A DNA stretch of 44,383 nucleotides. Origin: an uncultured Eubacteriales bacterium (GTDB lineage: Bacteria > Bacillota > Clostridia > Oscillospirales > Acutalibacteraceae). How positions within the stretch are numbered: position 1 is the first letter of the stretch; each line of letters begins with the position of its first letter. Location: assembly GCA_900317085.1 (NCBI GenBank), contig ONFJ01000017.1:1-44383 (forward strand). Direction: 5' to 3'. Below are positions 25,771 through 44,383 of this stretch, one piece after another. The notes below the pieces were generated by a model, which was given only the letters and a program-made list of their open reading frames with translations, did not search any database and was not told the DNA's origin. The translations under genes were made by a program, and so were the position numbers.

Positions 25771-26985
25771 GAAGGTCAGGCCGTCGGTCATACCGAGGGC
25801 ACAGACGAGGATGACAGCGGCAATGATCAGGTTGCGGCTCTTGGAGAAGTCGACATGGGATTCGACCATGTTCCGAAGACCGGCCGCGGAGATCATACCG
25901 TAAAGGACGAAGGAGATACCGCCGATAGTTGCGGTCGGGATGGTGTGGATGATGGCCGCAAATTTCGGGCTGAAGGACAGGACCGCCGCAAAGCAGGCCG
26001 CGATGCGGATGACCTTCGGGTCGTAGACTTTCGTCAGGGCCAGGACACCGGTGTTCTCACCGTAGGTTGTGTTGGCCGGCGCGCCGAACAGGGACGCGAT
26101 GGTGGTGGCAAGACCGTCACCGGTCAGCGTTCTGTGGAGGCCCGGGTCGGCGATGTAGTTCTTTCCGACGGTAGCACTGATGGCGGAGATGTCGCCGATG
26201 TGCTCCATCATGGTCGCGAGAGCGATCGGGACGATGGCGACGATGGCGGTGATGACCAGAGAGCTGTTGCCGAAGTCCACGCCACCAAAGACGGTGCTGT
26301 GCCAGTGGATCGGGGAACCGATCCAGGCGGCTTCCTTGATGGGCGTGAAATCCACATCGTGGCAGAGGACCGCAACGATGTAGGAGACGACGACACCCAT
26401 GATGATCGGGATGATCCGCATCATACCGACGCCCCAGATGTTGAACATGATGACGACGACGAGTGCGGAGAAGGCGACCAGCCAGTTCTCCTGGCAGTTC
26501 GCGACGGCGGAGCCGGAGAGGCCGAGGCCGATGGCAACGATGATCGGACCGGTGACGACCGGCGGGAAGTACTTCATGACCTTGGTGGTACCAAAGGCAC
26601 GGATGACAGCGGCCAGGATGAGGTAGACGAGACCGGCACAGGCGACGCCGAAGCAGGCGTACGGCAGGAGCTGGGCCTGTGTCATGTTCTCATCGGCAAG
26701 GCCAGTGATGGCGGCATAACCGCCGAGGAAGGCGAAGGACGAACCCAGGAACGCGGGCACCTTCATCTTCGTGATGAAGTGGAACAGCAATGTACCGAGG
26801 CCTGCGAAGAGCAGCGTCGTCGAGACATCGAGTCCGGTGATCAGCGGTACGAGGACCGTGGCGCCAAACATGGCAAACATGTGCTGGAGACCGAGGATGA
26901 CCATTCTGGGCGTGCCCAGTTTGGTGGCATCGTAAATGGCCTCCCCTGCTTCAAACGCAGGAGCTTTGGTTTTTTCTTCTGCCAT
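25681..26985 (-). CDS. uraA: NCS2 uracil:H+ symporter, frameshifted near the C-terminus
   Basis: The open frame gives 434 residues. Membrane transporter with 13 of the expected 14 helices. UraA signatures are QHMFAMFGATVLVPLITGLD, the substrate/proton Glu in MMEHIGDI, and PANTTYGENTGVLALTKVYDP with the second Glu. After GMTDGL the frame turns into an unrelated His/Arg-rich tail because of a one-base insertion; restored, the protein would be about 480 residues and end at 25542. AGGAGAG precedes ATG. It has its own promoter. Uracil is the likely substrate; xanthine is less likely given the motifs. An assembly error is possible. Confidence 0.85.
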   Translation of the reverse strand: MAEEKTKAPAFEAGEAIYDATKLGTPRMVILGLQHMFAMFGATVLVPLITGLDVSTTLLFAGLGTLLFHFITKMKVPAFLGSSFAFLGGYAAITGLADENMTQAQLLPYACFGVACAGLVYLILAAVIRAFGTTKVMKYFPPVVTGPIIVAIGLGLSGSAVANCQENWLVAFSALVVVIMFNIWGVGMMRIIPIIMGVVVSYIVAVLCHDVDFTPIKEAAWIGSPIHWHSTVFGGVDFGNSSLVITAIVAIVPIALATMMEHIGDISAISATVGKNYIADPGLHRTLTGDGLATTIASLFGAPANTTYGENTGVLALTKVYDPKVIRIAACFAAVLSFSPKFAAIIHTIPTATIGGISFVLYGMISAAGLRNMVESHVDFSKSRNLIIAAVILVCALGMTDGLTFHHHAVRAGRRFHRRHPAQRHPSGQRLHLR

Positions 26986-27044
26986 AAAAATCTCTCCTCA
27001 ACAAAATAACATACACAACATAAGCAACATACTTACTGTGTAAA

Positions 27045-27073
27045 ATTCTACCAACATACATAAAAAAACGCAA
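27045..27073 (-). promoter_or_regulatory. Promoter of the uracil permease gene
   Basis: TTGCGT (27068-27073) and TAGAAT (27045-27050) on the minus strand, 17 nt apart. The -35 box lies 25 nt from the edge of the tRNA-tail repeat array. Confidence 0.6.
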
Positions 27074-27097
27074 CATCTGGTGGCGTACAAGTTAATT

Positions 27098-27251
27098 GTG
27101 CGGACGACGGGACCTGGTTCGCCGCAAGCGCTTTGCGCTCTGGTGCGGACGACGGGACTTGGTTCGCCGCAAGCGCTTTGCGCTCTGGTGCGGACGACGG
27201 GACTTGGTTCGCCGCAAGCGCTTTGCGCTCTGGTGCGGACGACGGGACTTG
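27098..27251 (-). repeat. Tandem 45-bp repeats carrying tRNA-Leu(CAG) 3' tails
   Basis: Four copies of the tRNA-Leu(CAG) 3' end at a 45-bp period (copies at 27098-27116, 27141-27161, 27186-27206 and 27231-27251). Copies 2-4 keep 21 nt from the T-loop through CCA, read on the minus strand; the first has a changed T-loop base and no intact CCA. The other half of each unit is GTTCGCCGC followed by a small AGCGC-TTT/AAA-GCGCT hairpin. Open frames read across this array (15-residue repeats) are artefacts of the kind produced by antisense tRNA sequence. Confidence 0.9.
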
Positions 27252-27253
27252 AC

Positions 27254-27329
27254 GCAATTTTGCTTTGCAAAATTGCTCCGAGGTGCTGCCGCACCTCACT
27301 CGCCTAAAAACATGCCACCGGCATGTTTT
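27254..27329. repeat. Three-hairpin module downstream of tRNA-Leu(CAG)
   Basis: Successive stems: a 10-bp stem GCAATTTTGC (27254-27276), GAGGTGC-TGCC-GCACCTC (27280-27297), and AAAACATGCC-ACC-GGCATGTTTT (27307-27329). The last two recur with changed but still paired bases beside the other two tRNA genes in the window. Confidence 0.8.
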
Positions 27330-27349
27330 CTTGACGGCTCGCCCCTACC

Positions 27350-27437
27350 GGGTTCAAGTCCCTGTCCGCAAAAAGAAACAGCGAATACGCAAAAGCGTAT
27401 TCGCTGTTTCCTGGTGCGGACGACGGGACTTGAACCC
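27350..27437. repeat. Quasi-palindrome spanning the tRNA-Leu(CAG) 3' end
   Basis: GGGTTCAAGTCCC (27350-27362) is an inverted copy of the T-arm of the adjacent tRNA (27425-27437). TGTCCGCA, then the 16-bp terminator stem, continue the match, so the two arms are about 41-43 nt with a 4-nt centre. The copy has AAA where the tRNA has CCA, which supplies the terminator T run. Confidence 0.9.
27375..27410 (-). terminator. Terminator of tRNA-Leu(CAG)
   Basis: Perfect 16-bp stem (GAAACAGCGAATACGC) with a 4-nt loop, starting one base after CCA, followed by TTTTT on the minus strand. Confidence 0.95.
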
Positions 27438-27498
27438 ACATGAACTTGCATTCACTAGAACCTGAATCTAGCGCGTCTGCCAATTCCGCCACGTCCGC
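27412..27498 (-). tRNA. tRNA-Leu(CAG)
   Basis: 87 nt including encoded CCA. Acceptor stem GCGGACG/CGTCCGC, discriminator A; anticodon stem CTAGA/TCTAG with loop TTCAGGT, anticodon CAG (reads CUG); long class II variable arm; T-arm TGGGTTCAAGTCCCG. Confidence 0.97.
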
Positions 27499-27541
27499 AT
27501 ATGTATGTCAAGCGAGGAGACCCCGCGTTGACTGCTTGAAT

Positions 27542-27570
27542 ATAATAGCACAGCAAATCGCCAAATGCAA
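27542..27570 (-). promoter_or_regulatory. Promoter of tRNA-Leu(CAG)
   Basis: TTGCAT (27565-27570) and TATTAT (27542-27547) on the minus strand, 17 nt apart. No clear terminator for purF lies between the purF stop and this promoter. Confidence 0.7.
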
Positions 27571-27587
27571 CGATATTTTTTCAGTTT

Positions 27588-29039
27588 TTAATCTAAAACG
27601 GCAAACTCTCCGATCTTTTGATCGAACTTGTTTTTCGTGACCTCTTTCGGGACCGGGATCGGGTAGTCGCCGGAGAAACAGCCGGTGCAGAAACCGACGG
27701 AAGCGCCTTCCGCGATATGCTTTGTGGCGTCTACGGACAGGTATCCGAGGGAATCGACACCGATCGCCTTTCCGATCTCCTCCACGGTCTCGTACTGGTT
27801 CGCGATGAGCCGGTCGCCGCTGTCCACGTCCGTCCCAAAGTAGCAGGCGTGCTTGAAGGGTGGCGATGAGACACGCATATGGACCTCCTTCGCGCCGGCT
27901 TCCCGCAGGAGCTCGACGATCCGCGCACAGGTCGTACCGCGGACGATGGAGTCATCGATCATGATGACCCTCTTCCCCGCGATGTTCTCCCGGATGGCGT
28001 TCAGCTTGATGCGCACCGCATCCTCCCGCTGTTCCTGAGAGGGTTCGATGAAGCTGCGGCCGATGTACCGGTTCTTCACGAAGCCGATGCCGTACGGGAT
28101 GCCGCTGTCTTTCGCGTAGCCCATCGCCGCGTCCAATCCGGAGTCCGGCACACCGATGACGATGTCCGCCTCCACCGGATGCTCCTTTGCGAGGAACTCC
28201 CCGGCCCGGATGCGCGCATGGTGGACCGAAGCGCCGTCCAGGACCGAATCCGAACGGGCGAAGTAGATGTACTCGAACACGCAGATGCTGCTGCCTTCCG
28301 GCTTGCTGCAGTTCGTCGCAATGGACTGCACGCCCTTCCGGCTGATGACGACGACCTCACCGGGCCGGATGTCCCGCACCAGCGTCGCGCCGATGGAGTC
28401 GAAGGCACAGGATTCACTGGCCACGACATAGGCACCATCCGGCGTCTGGCCGAGACTCAGAGGCCGGAACCCATTCGGGTCCCGGAACGCGATCAGCTTG
28501 GTTGCGGTCATCACGATGCAGGAGTAGGCACCGCGCAGCGAGTCCATGGTTCGAAGCACCGCCTCTTCCGTGCTTTTGCTTTTCAGTCGGTTCGCCGCGA
28601 TGGTATACGCGATGGACTCGGTGTCGGACGACCCGTGGAAAATGCCACCCGAGAGTTCGAACGACCGACGGATCTCATCCGCGTTCACCAGATTCCCGTT
28701 GTGCGCCAGCGCCATGTTCCCCTTGATGTGCCGGATGACCAGAGGCTGGACGTTCGTAAGGTCCCCACCGCCGGTGGTGGAATAGCGCACATGGCCGATC
28801 GCCATATTGCCCTTCCCCAGTCCCCGCAGATGTTCCTCCGAGAACACCTCATGAACGAGGCCGTGGCCCTTCAGGTGGGCGAAAACACCGTCATCGTTGA
28901 CGACGATGCCACAAGACTCCTGCCCCCTGTGCTGGAGCGCATAGAGGGCAAGGTAAGTCGTATGAGAGATGTCTGTAGTCTTCGTTTCGAAGATGCCGAA
29001 GACGCCGCATTCTTCATGTAAGCTGTCAAAAACGGTCAT
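27588..29039 (-). CDS. purF: Amidophosphoribosyltransferase
   Basis: 483 residues from the chosen start. It makes phosphoribosylamine from PRPP and glutamine, the first committed step of purine synthesis. A 10-residue propeptide precedes the nucleophile C11 (EECGVFGIF); class II amidotransferase motifs are ALQHRGQES, GHVRYSTTG, HNGNLVN and SDTES; the PRPP loop is VIMIDDSIVRGTT. The C-terminal CFSGDYP Cys suggests the Fe-S (B. subtilis-like) type. The frame is open 90 codons further up, but that part is Arg-rich shadow of asnA; ATG 29039 overlaps the asnA stop as ATGA. No other pur gene is near. Confidence 0.95.
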   Translation of the reverse strand: MTVFDSLHEECGVFGIFETKTTDISHTTYLALYALQHRGQESCGIVVNDDGVFAHLKGHGLVHEVFSEEHLRGLGKGNMAIGHVRYSTTGGGDLTNVQPLVIRHIKGNMALAHNGNLVNADEIRRSFELSGGIFHGSSDTESIAYTIAANRLKSKSTEEAVLRTMDSLRGAYSCIVMTATKLIAFRDPNGFRPLSLGQTPDGAYVVASESCAFDSIGATLVRDIRPGEVVVISRKGVQSIATNCSKPEGSSICVFEYIYFARSDSVLDGASVHHARIRAGEFLAKEHPVEADIVIGVPDSGLDAAMGYAKDSGIPYGIGFVKNRYIGRSFIEPSQEQREDAVRIKLNAIRENIAGKRVIMIDDSIVRGTTCARIVELLREAGAKEVHMRVSSPPFKHACYFGTDVDSGDRLIANQYETVEEIGKAIGVDSLGYLSVDATKHIAEGASVGFCTGCFSGDYPIPVPKEVTKNKFDQKIGEFAVLD

Positions 29040-38548: not shown

Positions 38549-38571
38549 AAAGAGAGCTGTCGCTCTCTTTG
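38549..38571 (-). terminator. Terminator after the tRNA-tail copy, ahead of the MFS gene
   Basis: AAAGAGAGC-TGTC-GCTCTCTTT hairpin next to the CCA of the tail copy, followed by TTTTATG on the minus strand, copying the tRNA-CCA-terminator arrangement. Confidence 0.75.
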
Positions 38572-38590
38572 GTGCGAGAGACGGGACTTG
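38570..38590 (-). repeat. Direct copy of the tRNA-Leu(GAG) 3' tail
   Basis: 21 nt identical to the tRNA from the T-loop CAAGT through CCA, about 266 nt beyond the gene. The break point in the T-loop is the same as in the tandem copies beside tRNA-Leu(CAG), and the base string following it (GTTCGC) is also shared. Confidence 0.9.
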
Positions 38591-38707
38591 GTTCGCAGCA
38601 CTGCGCTGCCTGTGGCAGATGAAGCAGGGCTGTCGAACAGGAAGAAACAAGGAGTATCGCGAAGCGCTCCAAGCGAGCGAGACGACTATGTTTCTGACCG
38701 TCCGCGC
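38591..38707. other. Non-coding insert between tail copy and hairpin module
   Basis: About 117 nt rich in GCG/CGC short repeats (GCAGC...GCTGC hairpin at 38596-38609; GCGAAGCGC; AAGCGAGCGAG). Short frames exist on both strands, but none has a ribosome site or recognisable product. No gene is called. Confidence 0.4.
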
Positions 38708-38779
38708 TTTCGCTTCGCGAAACCGCACCGAGCTGCTTCCGCAGCTCCCGTCGCTAAAAACAGTCCACAGGACTGTTTT
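38708..38779. repeat. Hairpin module downstream of tRNA-Leu(GAG)
   Basis: TTTCGC-TTC-GCGAAA (38708-38722), GAGCTGC-TTCC-GCAGCTC (38730-38747) and AAAACAGTCC-ACA-GGACTGTTTT (38757-38779), in the same order and spacing as next to tRNA-Leu(CAG). Confidence 0.8.
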
Positions 38780-38797
38780 CTTGACGCTCCGGCCCAA

Positions 38798-38882
38798 GGG
38801 TTCAAGTCCCGTCCGGACAAAATGAAAAGCCAGACCCATACGGGTCTGGCTTTTCATGGTGCGAGAGACGGGACTTGAACCC
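38798..38882. repeat. Quasi-palindrome spanning the tRNA-Leu(GAG) 3' end
   Basis: GGGTTCAAGTCCCGTC (38798-38813) is the exact inverse of the tRNA T-arm (38867-38882, 16 nt). A 9- and 10-nt internal loop separates it from the 15-bp terminator stem. Confidence 0.9.
38823..38856 (-). terminator. Terminator of tRNA-Leu(GAG)
   Basis: Perfect 15-bp stem (TGAAAAGCCAGACCC) with loop ATAC, directly abutting CCA; TTTTGT follows on the minus strand. Confidence 0.9.
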
Positions 38883-38941
38883 GTACGAGTCGCCCCACAC
38901 GCCCCTCAAACGTGCGCGTCTGCCGATTCCGCCACTCTCGC
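38857..38941 (-). tRNA. tRNA-Leu(GAG)
   Basis: 85 nt with encoded CCA. Acceptor GCGAGAG/CTCTCGC; anticodon stem CACGT/GCGTG with loop TTGAGGG, anticodon GAG; class II variable arm TGGGGCGACTCGT; T-arm ACGGGTTCAAGTCCCGT. Confidence 0.97.
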
Positions 38942-44159: not shown

Positions 44160-44189
44160 ATTGTACACAATGGAAGTACAAGTGGTCAA
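44160..44189 (-). promoter_or_regulatory. Candidate promoter of DUF362
   Basis: TTGACC (44184-44189) and TACAAT (44160-44165) on the minus strand, 18 nt apart. The -35 lies 14 nt from the hairpin module of tRNA-Pro. Confidence 0.6.
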
Positions 44190-44202
44190 GGATAATATGC
44201 CC

Positions 44203-44251
44203 GAGCTGCTGCCGCAGCTCCCGTCGCTAAAAACAGTCCGCAGGACTGTTT
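44203..44251. repeat. Two-hairpin module downstream of tRNA-Pro(GGG)
   Basis: GAGCTGC-TGCC-GCAGCTC (44203-44220) and AAACAGTCC-GCA-GGACTGTTT (44231-44251). The third hairpin and the tail copies seen at the tRNA-Leu loci are missing; the DUF362 promoter stands there instead. Confidence 0.8.
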
Positions 44252-44272
44252 GTTTAACGGCGCGGCTCTGCC

Positions 44273-44359
44273 GAGTTCAAGTCTCGCCTGGAAAGTGAAA
44301 AGAGCATCGGGCAAAAGCCCAATGCTCTTTTCATGGTCCGAGTGGCGAGACTTGAACTC
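44273..44359. repeat. Quasi-palindrome spanning the tRNA-Pro(GGG) 3' end
   Basis: GAGTTCAAGTCTCGCC (44273-44288) is the exact inverse of the tRNA-Pro T-arm and adjoining bases (44344-44359), different from the leucine copies and matching its own neighbour. Confidence 0.9.
44296..44333 (-). terminator. Terminator of tRNA-Pro(GGG)
   Basis: 17-bp stem with one C-A mismatch (TGAAAAGAGCAT then GGGC) and a 4-nt loop, abutting CCA. Confidence 0.85.
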
Positions 44360-44383
44360 ACGGCCTCTTGACCCCCAGTCAAG
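44334..44383 (-). tRNA. tRNA-Pro(GGG), 3' part only
   Basis: The window ends inside the gene. Visible are anticodon stem CTTGA/TCAAG with loop CTGGGGG (anticodon GGG), T-arm GTGAGTTCAAGTCTCGC, 3' acceptor strand CACTCGG and ACCA. Confidence 0.93.

Follow-up and report, generated by a model that had tools for sequence, protein, structure and literature searches.

A small structured insert behind tRNA genes that carries inverted and direct copies of the adjacent tRNA 3' end

tRNA genes are classic integration targets, and the integrases that use them are, to our knowledge, matched to particular tRNA genes. The attC sites of integrons carry the motif GTTRRRY. In Escherichia coli, the rtT repeats at tyrT reportedly follow a tRNA gene in tandem and contain its 3' end in every unit, as seen at one locus of the present element; they are confined to that one E. 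coli locus, and we know of no inverted T-arm in them. REP/RAYT and MITE-type repeats are small, non-autonomous and palindromic, a likeness shared by the element described here. Unlike such repeats, this element is found in its own genome only at tRNA genes or copies of their 3' ends and its arms are copied per target; furthermore, unlike the situation for REP/RAYT, no Y1 transposase is present in seven of the eight members of the genus.

According to the Islander description (PMC4383910), tDNA islands consist of an intact tRNA gene, the insert and a displaced direct 3' fragment, with the T loop and tmRNA genes among the known targets. An intact tRNA gene with a displaced direct 3' fragment was also found for the present element, which differs from the islands, as portrayed there (PMC4383910), by its size (less than about 200 bp in the simple case), the absence of an integrase, the presence of an inverted T-arm and the use of one core at many tRNA types. 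The filters described there drop candidates that are shorter than 2 kb, lack an integrase or are oppositely oriented, so these units would be discarded (PMC4383910). The nearest mechanical parallel is offered by integron cassettes and attC sites, which, as described in PMC3053210, are alike in their array-like units and in a folded palindromic site with unpaired bases. Our element differs from them in that its own genome has no integron integrase, there are no cassette genes and the target is the T-loop. A literature search, with thin coverage of subscription journals, returned no description of this architecture, and the units appear to form a family of small elements, so far undescribed, that adapt to the individual tRNA gene and leave it unbroken.

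The insert in the window and in its own genome

The DNA analyzed here, referred to as the window, is a stretch of 44,383 nucleotides. Three tRNA 3' ends lie in the window, all on the minus strand, and behind each of them the sequence shows a terminator hairpin with its T run and then the T-arm of that tRNA in inverted copy (T'), just as a sequence-only reading of the window had reported (Table 1). The word GTTCAAGTC occurs six times in the window, three times per orientation, against an expectation of 0.41, and six copies were reached in none of 100 shuffles. That reading was correct about T' but missed what stands behind it: a core of about 95 nt with four hairpins (H0-H3) and, at two of the three window sites, a further copy (T2) of the 3' end of the same tRNA in direct orientation, starting at T-loop base 55 or 56. 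There is no protein gene in the element, which is shorter than about 200 bp in its simple case.

Table 1. Parts of the three tRNA loci in the window, with the basis of each assignment (R1, covariance model of the core)
Feature	Position	Strand	Basis
tRNA-Leu(cag), CCA encoded	27412..27498	-	ARAGORN; Rfam
Terminator hairpin with T run, left part of insert, tRNA-Leu(cag) locus	27370..27411	-	sequence
T', T-arm of tRNA-Leu(cag), inverted	27350..27369	-	sequence; fold
Core with hairpins H0-H3, tRNA-Leu(cag) locus; H1 at 27308-27328	27253..27349	-	model R1 27253-27344, 94.4 bits; fold
T2, tRNA-Leu(cag) positions 55-76, direct copy	27231..27252	-	sequence; positional profile
Three additional tandem units of 45 bp, all containing a tRNA-Leu(cag) 3'-end copy	27091..27230	-	repeat search; sequence
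tRNA-Leu(gag)	38857..38941	-	ARAGORN
Terminator hairpin with T run, tRNA-Leu(gag) locus	38819..38856	-	sequence
T', T-arm of tRNA-Leu(gag), inverted, 16/16	38798..38813	-	sequence
Core with H1-H3, tRNA-Leu(gag) locus	38703..38797	-	model R1 38703-38794, 110.8 bits
Second, unrelated repeat, between core and T2 of tRNA-Leu(gag)	38591..38702	-	sequence comparison
T2, tRNA-Leu(gag) 3' end from C56 to CCA, direct copy	38570..38590	-	repeat search; sequence
tRNA-Pro(ggg) 3' part, gene truncated by contig end	44334..44383	-	sequence; full gene at contig end in L021
Terminator hairpin, tRNA-Pro(ggg) locus	44292..44333	-	sequence
T', T-arm of tRNA-Pro(ggg), inverted, 16/16	44273..44288	-	sequence
Core, tRNA-Pro(ggg) locus; right end degraded, no H3 and no T2 seen	44177..44272	-	model R1 44177-44267, 64.5 bits

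Two of the window loci, Leu(cag) and Leu(gag), were compared across congeners by means of their neighbor genes (a xanthine/uracil permease and an MFS transporter), and the copy number and spacing of the tRNA 3' ends proved to be species-dependent. Behind tRNA-Leu(cag), congeners show other copy numbers of the 45-bp units, with linkers of about 6-8 nt at the same site. The unrelated repeat behind tRNA-Leu(gag) belongs to a family that recurs at tRNA-Asn (L013) and at the Leu(cag) genes of congeners G004 and G007 (L190 and L271). The window ends within tRNA-Pro(ggg), near the anticodon, and the full gene closes another contig at its CCA (L021); in G004, the 3' part of this gene adjoins an integrase-family gene (L185). 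An integrated element may be what breaks the assembly at window position 44383.

In its own 1.94-Mb draft assembly the core is present in 12 copies, 11 of them behind a tRNA gene or fragment. The core hairpin pattern was found at 11 places in this genome, every one directly 3' of a tRNA gene or 3' fragment, and the reversed pattern used as a control was found at none. The twelfth core, detected with covariance model R1, lies near a contig end beside a T2 resembling tRNA-Val(gac) (L249). ARAGORN identified 36 tRNA genes in the fetched stretches of the assembly, 10 of which carry the core, so the earlier statement that every tRNA gene has an inverted copy applies to the window and not to the genome. 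At the ten core-bearing tRNAs, none of which has a second tRNA gene within 260 nt downstream, an ungapped count gives 9-13 matches between T' and the 13 bases of the own T-arm, three of them reaching 9 only. Among the 26 core-less tRNAs, one has no flank (contig end); for the other 25 the best match lies between 6 and 10, with a single gene at 9 and another at 10, and these values are taken as chance. The 25 include Val(gac), with a flank of only 107 nt, and the Asn gene of L013, with a degraded T' and another insert. The inverted copy thus recurs at the ten core-bearing genes and is absent above chance at the 25 others. No T' above the chance range was found in this genome without a core, which indicates that T' belongs to the insert and not to tRNA genes as such, and which speaks against the free-standing local inverted duplication first proposed.

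Specificity of the copies and folding of the unit

In an element-enriched collection of 155 flanks, 44 carry a T' of at least 12/13, compared with a mean of 1.8 and at most 4 for permuted partners, in agreement with the earlier claim that the copy matches the adjacent gene. At 61 element loci, picked via the core hairpin, the variable T-arm part of T' scores 7.97 with its own tRNA vs. 5.58 ± 0.16 with permuted ones, and T2 scores 13.6 vs. 6.5 (in each case, 0 of 10,000 permutations reach the own value). The own tRNA is the strictly best partner in only 16 of the 61 loci for T' and in 48 for T2, because the letters of the T-arm are common to many tRNAs. From 29 class loci chosen by tRNA score alone, irrespective of the element, 31 tRNAs were taken that stand alone or close their cluster. 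None of them reaches at least 12/13 and the single one at 11/13 bears the element; at 10/13 there are four, vs. 1.5 for permuted partners. None of 52 tRNAs inside clusters has a T' of 11 or more.

A positional profile of 39 loci in the genus places the start of T2 at base 55, with an agreement of 0.90-0.97 over bases 55-69 and 0.36-0.51 at bases 74-76. The last matching base of T2 is at 67-76 in 30 of the 32 loci where it was measured, and a measurable T2 is absent in seven more. T', present in 36 of the 39 loci, is specific to its own tRNA from base 57 to 66 and at background beyond, the other three loci being without an inverted T-loop. At the 22 loci of other genera, the start of T2 is variable (about 55-62) and a clear T' is missing at some loci (L068 and L103). 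Where T2 and the tRNA disagree (33 positions in 52 loci, some of which precede the T2 start), T' sides with the tRNA at 29 positions and with T2 at one. T' follows the tRNA rather than T2, and the T'-T2 stem is therefore imperfectly kept. Departures of T' from the T-arm at 78 loci comprise 10 T>C plus G>A changes vs. 7 C>T plus A>G changes, so G-U-compatible changes are hardly favored and there is no clear wobble preference.

At L177 and L192, tRNA-Lys and its direct copy carry two versions of the T-arm, and which of the two has which version is reversed from one congener to the other, as though a swap of the 3' parts had taken place. We also considered T' as the trace of a donor tRNA. The most distinct example, in which T' at Pro(cgg) of the own genome matches the tRNA-Ser tail of another genome at 16/16, was judged to be chance, and this idea was rejected.

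When 32 cores of the genus were aligned, RNAalifold predicted 23 pairs, 10 of which show two-sided changes. The T'-core-T2 sequence of the window is predicted to adopt a closed multi-branched fold (z of -6.9 as RNA and -6.7 as DNA) with a closing stem and bulges, the T-loop being GTTCRAN. An alternative hairpin formed by the T-arm, CCA, terminator and T' is predicted at -70.3 kcal/mol (z of -11.5), and a read-through transcript could indeed tie up the T-arm as had been suggested. Since both folds are stable, T' has two competing partners.

The 22 core pairs counted, which omit one H1 column pair that is G-U in 27 of 32 sequences, comprise 688 Watson-Crick, 1 G-U and 15 mismatched cells (G-U 1/704). 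By comparison, the acceptor stems of 149 tRNAs from the same loci (tRNAs ending in CCA, with at most one mismatch) comprise 981 Watson-Crick, 58 G-U and 4 mismatched pairs (G-U 58/1043). The near-absence of G-U in the H1 and H2 core pairs points to pairing at the DNA level rather than in RNA. The H3 stems, when extended with G-U allowed, have 22 G-U in 196 pairs, which counts against that reading, as do the omitted H1 column pair and the lack of independence among related sequences.

Occupied and empty sites, and distribution among relatives

Comparison of orthologous sites in congeners identified occupied and empty states. Three genes, Thr(cgt), Pro(tgg) and Ser(tga), have an occupied site in which the tRNA with its CCA is followed by a new terminator, T' and the core; a repeat of the stretch from base 55 to CCA comes next, and behind it lies the homologous flank. 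In the matching empty orthologues the homologous flank comes directly after CCA, with the terminator itself diverged at Pro(tgg). Target duplication together with empty sites, as expected of MITE-like elements, was thus found at these three genes, in comparisons between species in which the Thr and Pro T-arms differ between the two species compared. A fourth gene, Ala(ggc), is occupied with a rearranged right end. The own genome is the empty partner in all four comparisons, which give presence vs. absence between congeners and not which state is older. At Ser(tga), the unit introduces a terminator between two tRNA genes of one cluster.

Mean core similarity is 0.71 for the same tRNA in different genomes (22 pairs), 0.63 within a genome (129 pairs) and 0.65 across both (590 pairs). 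The likeness is thus slightly greater where the tRNA is the same, and recent hopping from tRNA to tRNA is not demonstrated; the copies seen are mostly old and locus-bound, and no movement inside a species was seen. The terminator hairpins are almost wholly different among orthologues at Arg(ccg) (G000, G001 and G004) and Pro(cgg) (G000, G003 and G004), even though, at Arg(ccg), G000 and G004 have cores that are 98% alike. At Ser(cga) and Leu(taa), the terminator hairpins of G000 and G004 are nearly identical. Unlike terminators combined with like cores at orthologous genes are something that a simple unit fails to account for.

The strict hairpin pattern was found in 10 of 20 relatives, including seven of the eight genus members (the own genome among them) and not G002. 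These relatives have 41 distinct matches (43 with two repeated), 32 of which have a tRNA or tmRNA gene upstream; of the nine without one, four lie where a contig ends, and in a fifth a different integration has disrupted the tRNA. Within the genus, the element is behind 12 tRNA types plus tmRNA. Using the covariance model (E up to 1e-4), matches were found in 45 of 291 genomes of the class, representing 36 of 181 genera. Fifty model loci were examined. A tRNA or tmRNA gene lies within 500 nt upstream in 31, and four at contig ends (L228, L232, L243 and L244) are outside the judged set. Among the remaining 15, twelve show by eye a T' or tRNA 3' end but no whole tRNA, L223 and L245 have neither, and the fifteenth, L234, has its core on the 5' side of a tRNA, as described below.

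Duplicated blocks from T-loop to T' flank the core on both sides at L053, L115, L189 and L246, and arrays of two units are found at L119, L121 and L224. At L234 (G232:C4, minus strand 1620-1360), a related core lies 5' of tRNA-Pro(cgg). A partial upstream region and the tRNA 5' part, ending in the D-loop (CAGTTGG), are followed by the core and then by the same stretch with the intact tRNA. This arrangement is the D-loop mirror image of a T-loop insertion, and an inverted T-arm is also present downstream of the same tRNA-Pro(cgg).

In a hairpin scan of named genomes, 21 among the 121 matches listed are within 400 nt behind a tRNA. Among these listed matches, the hairpin follows tRNA genes in Clostridia such as Ruminococcus, and in a Cyclobacterium and a planctomycete without a clear T'; it lies away from tRNA genes in Streptococcus, in Treponema and in many Ruminococcus copies. 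Many of the listed matches are off tRNA genes, and hence the hairpin itself is not specific to them. At the planctomycete locus (L068), tRNA-Ala is followed by a core in which this hairpin is present, and about 80 bp from the T-loop on are directly repeated, with no clear inverted T-arm. No match was found in phages for a Clostridia-type unit (L254) or for a unit of the own genome (L219), nor in plasmids for the latter. Two strict patterns gave zero and one stretch in viral contigs, the one stretch having no tRNA gene in the 13,983 bases examined. Rfam 15 annotated only tRNA and tmRNA at the gathering threshold in 17 loci. In window positions 26900-27600 (701 bases, E up to 1), around the tRNA-Leu(cag) locus, it gave the tRNA and five weak matches below gathering scores, and no match to RtT.

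Candidate enzymes and possible origin

Several enzymes were considered as the mover of the element. The Y1 transposase was rejected, being absent in 14 of the 20 relatives, including G000-G006 (seven of the eight genus members); it is present in the other six, among them the hairpin-bearing G007, G014 and G019. A reverse transcriptase was likewise rejected, with no RVT_1 in eight of nine element-bearing genomes, and so was Cas1, absent in all 10 genomes tested; both absences are from draft assemblies. G028 has 11 model matches, a completeness of 100 and no RVT_1. Among four genus members, tyrosine recombinases number one each in G003 and G007 and two each in G000 and G004. The first of G000, 328 aa in length, falls under every NCBIfam equivalog cut-off, with its best score to XerC and its nearest cut-off that of XerA. 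Scores of 87 and 59 bits, far below the TIGR02249 cut-off of 265, show that the two in the own genome are not integron integrases. The second of G004 lies beside the 3' part of a tRNA-Pro(ggg) gene broken in its anticodon region, and was set aside as a separate prophage-type integration. No integrase gene was noticed inside the units inspected, and the length of those in the own genome and congeners leaves no room for a gene. For the enzyme of the element, the own genome offers its Xer-like tyrosine recombinase as a candidate, and only a candidate.

We put the odds at somewhat better than even that these sequences are a mobile element that is small, non-autonomous and devoid of protein genes, and whose insertion at tRNA and tmRNA genes is directed by the T-loop. 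The insert, composed of terminator hairpin, T' and core H0-H3, is located directly behind the encoded CCA. Its right end is followed by a second copy of the tRNA from base 55 onward, which leaves the tRNA itself intact. T', which covers bases 54 to about 66 in inverted form, could pair with bases 55 to about 66 of the direct copy T2 and thereby close a folded unit with co-varying stems. Recombination or cleavage would take place at the T-loop, between bases 54 and 55, probably on folded single-stranded or cruciform DNA and not on RNA, and mobility would be provided by a partner enzyme. T2 may stem from the target, as a 22-bp duplication, or may be brought along as in tRNA-targeting islands. 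T' might be copied from the target, perhaps through fold-back synthesis primed from the terminator hairpin, and would be retained because the closing stem is needed. Template-switch correction, put forward in the sequence-only reading, is another possible way in which T' is written.

A different arrangement of the same parts has a lesser though real chance of being correct: a tyrosine recombinase that works on folded DNA could excise a unit running from base 55 through CCA, terminator and T' to the core and insert it at T-loops, with T' and the T-arm as an attC-like stem and with spread mainly among like tRNAs of different genomes. The presumed cut at the inner end of this stem, the existence of unit arrays, the agreement of T' with the T-arm at the head of the unit and the slightly greater likeness of cores at the same tRNA could all be explained in this way, and one or two tyrosine recombinases per genome (G003 and G007; G000 and G004), the first of G000 being Xer-like, are at hand. 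However, one core behind 12 tRNA types would demand many tRNA-specific units, no integrase gene was noticed in the units inspected and, in the scan of the own genome, neither recombinase is an integron integrase. Integration scars left by ordinary prophages or islands in tRNA genes would explain the displaced direct 3' fragment, as well as the G004 tRNA-Pro(ggg) 3' part and unit near an integrase-family gene. This origin is very unlikely, being disfavored by a core shared among many tRNA types, by units too short for an integrase gene and by the inverted own T-arm. An insertion by a retroelement or by Cas1 of the casposase type is the least credible origin. In its favor, the inverted 3' end of a tRNA is similar to a primer-binding site, and the duplicated blocks are reminiscent of CRISPR repeats. 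Casposases are known to target tRNA 3' ends with duplications of 14-15 bp (PMC6977970). The lack of RVT_1 in eight of nine genomes and of Cas1 in ten of ten largely refutes such an origin for these draft genomes.

Two further explanations dispense with mobility. T' could be a mutational by-product of template switching at terminator palindromes and T2 one of slippage, with no mobile element involved. At L152, the sequence from the T-arm through the terminator to T' is by eye a near-perfect palindrome, and the short-linker tandem 3'-end copies at Leu(cag) and Leu(gag) differ between congeners. Nevertheless, a structured, conserved core accompanies T' in the own genome and has model matches in 36 of 181 genera, and core-less tRNAs have no T' above chance; we regard this explanation as unlikely. 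Slightly more doubtful still is an element acting at the RNA level, in which T' in read-through RNA would trap the T-arm as a quality-control or attenuation switch, with T2 competing. The strong read-through hairpin, the competing T'-core-T2 fold and the fidelity of T' to its tRNA are in its favor. The scarcity of G-U in the H1 and H2 core pairs, the lack of a clear wobble preference in T' and the presence of the element at some tRNAs only, variable between congeners, argue against it, and the quality-control role raised in the earlier reading is unsupported.

Extending the preferred reading of a small mobile element, we tentatively suggest, as something less likely than not, that this DNA is re-tailored at each landing. 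On entering the T-loop of any tRNA or tmRNA gene, it would take on a direct copy and a fold-back-written inverted copy of the local T-arm, which form the closing stem of the next folded substrate, and the target would be regenerated; a single machinery, possibly a housekeeping tyrosine recombinase, could then serve for every tRNA gene. If true, this would be a new way to exploit a universal target unharmed, with ends fitted to whichever tRNA or tmRNA gene is entered. It would also explain the arrays of tRNA 3' ends and the fast-changing terminators behind tRNA genes, and would mean that searches for tRNA fragments that drop short or inverted matches lose real biology.
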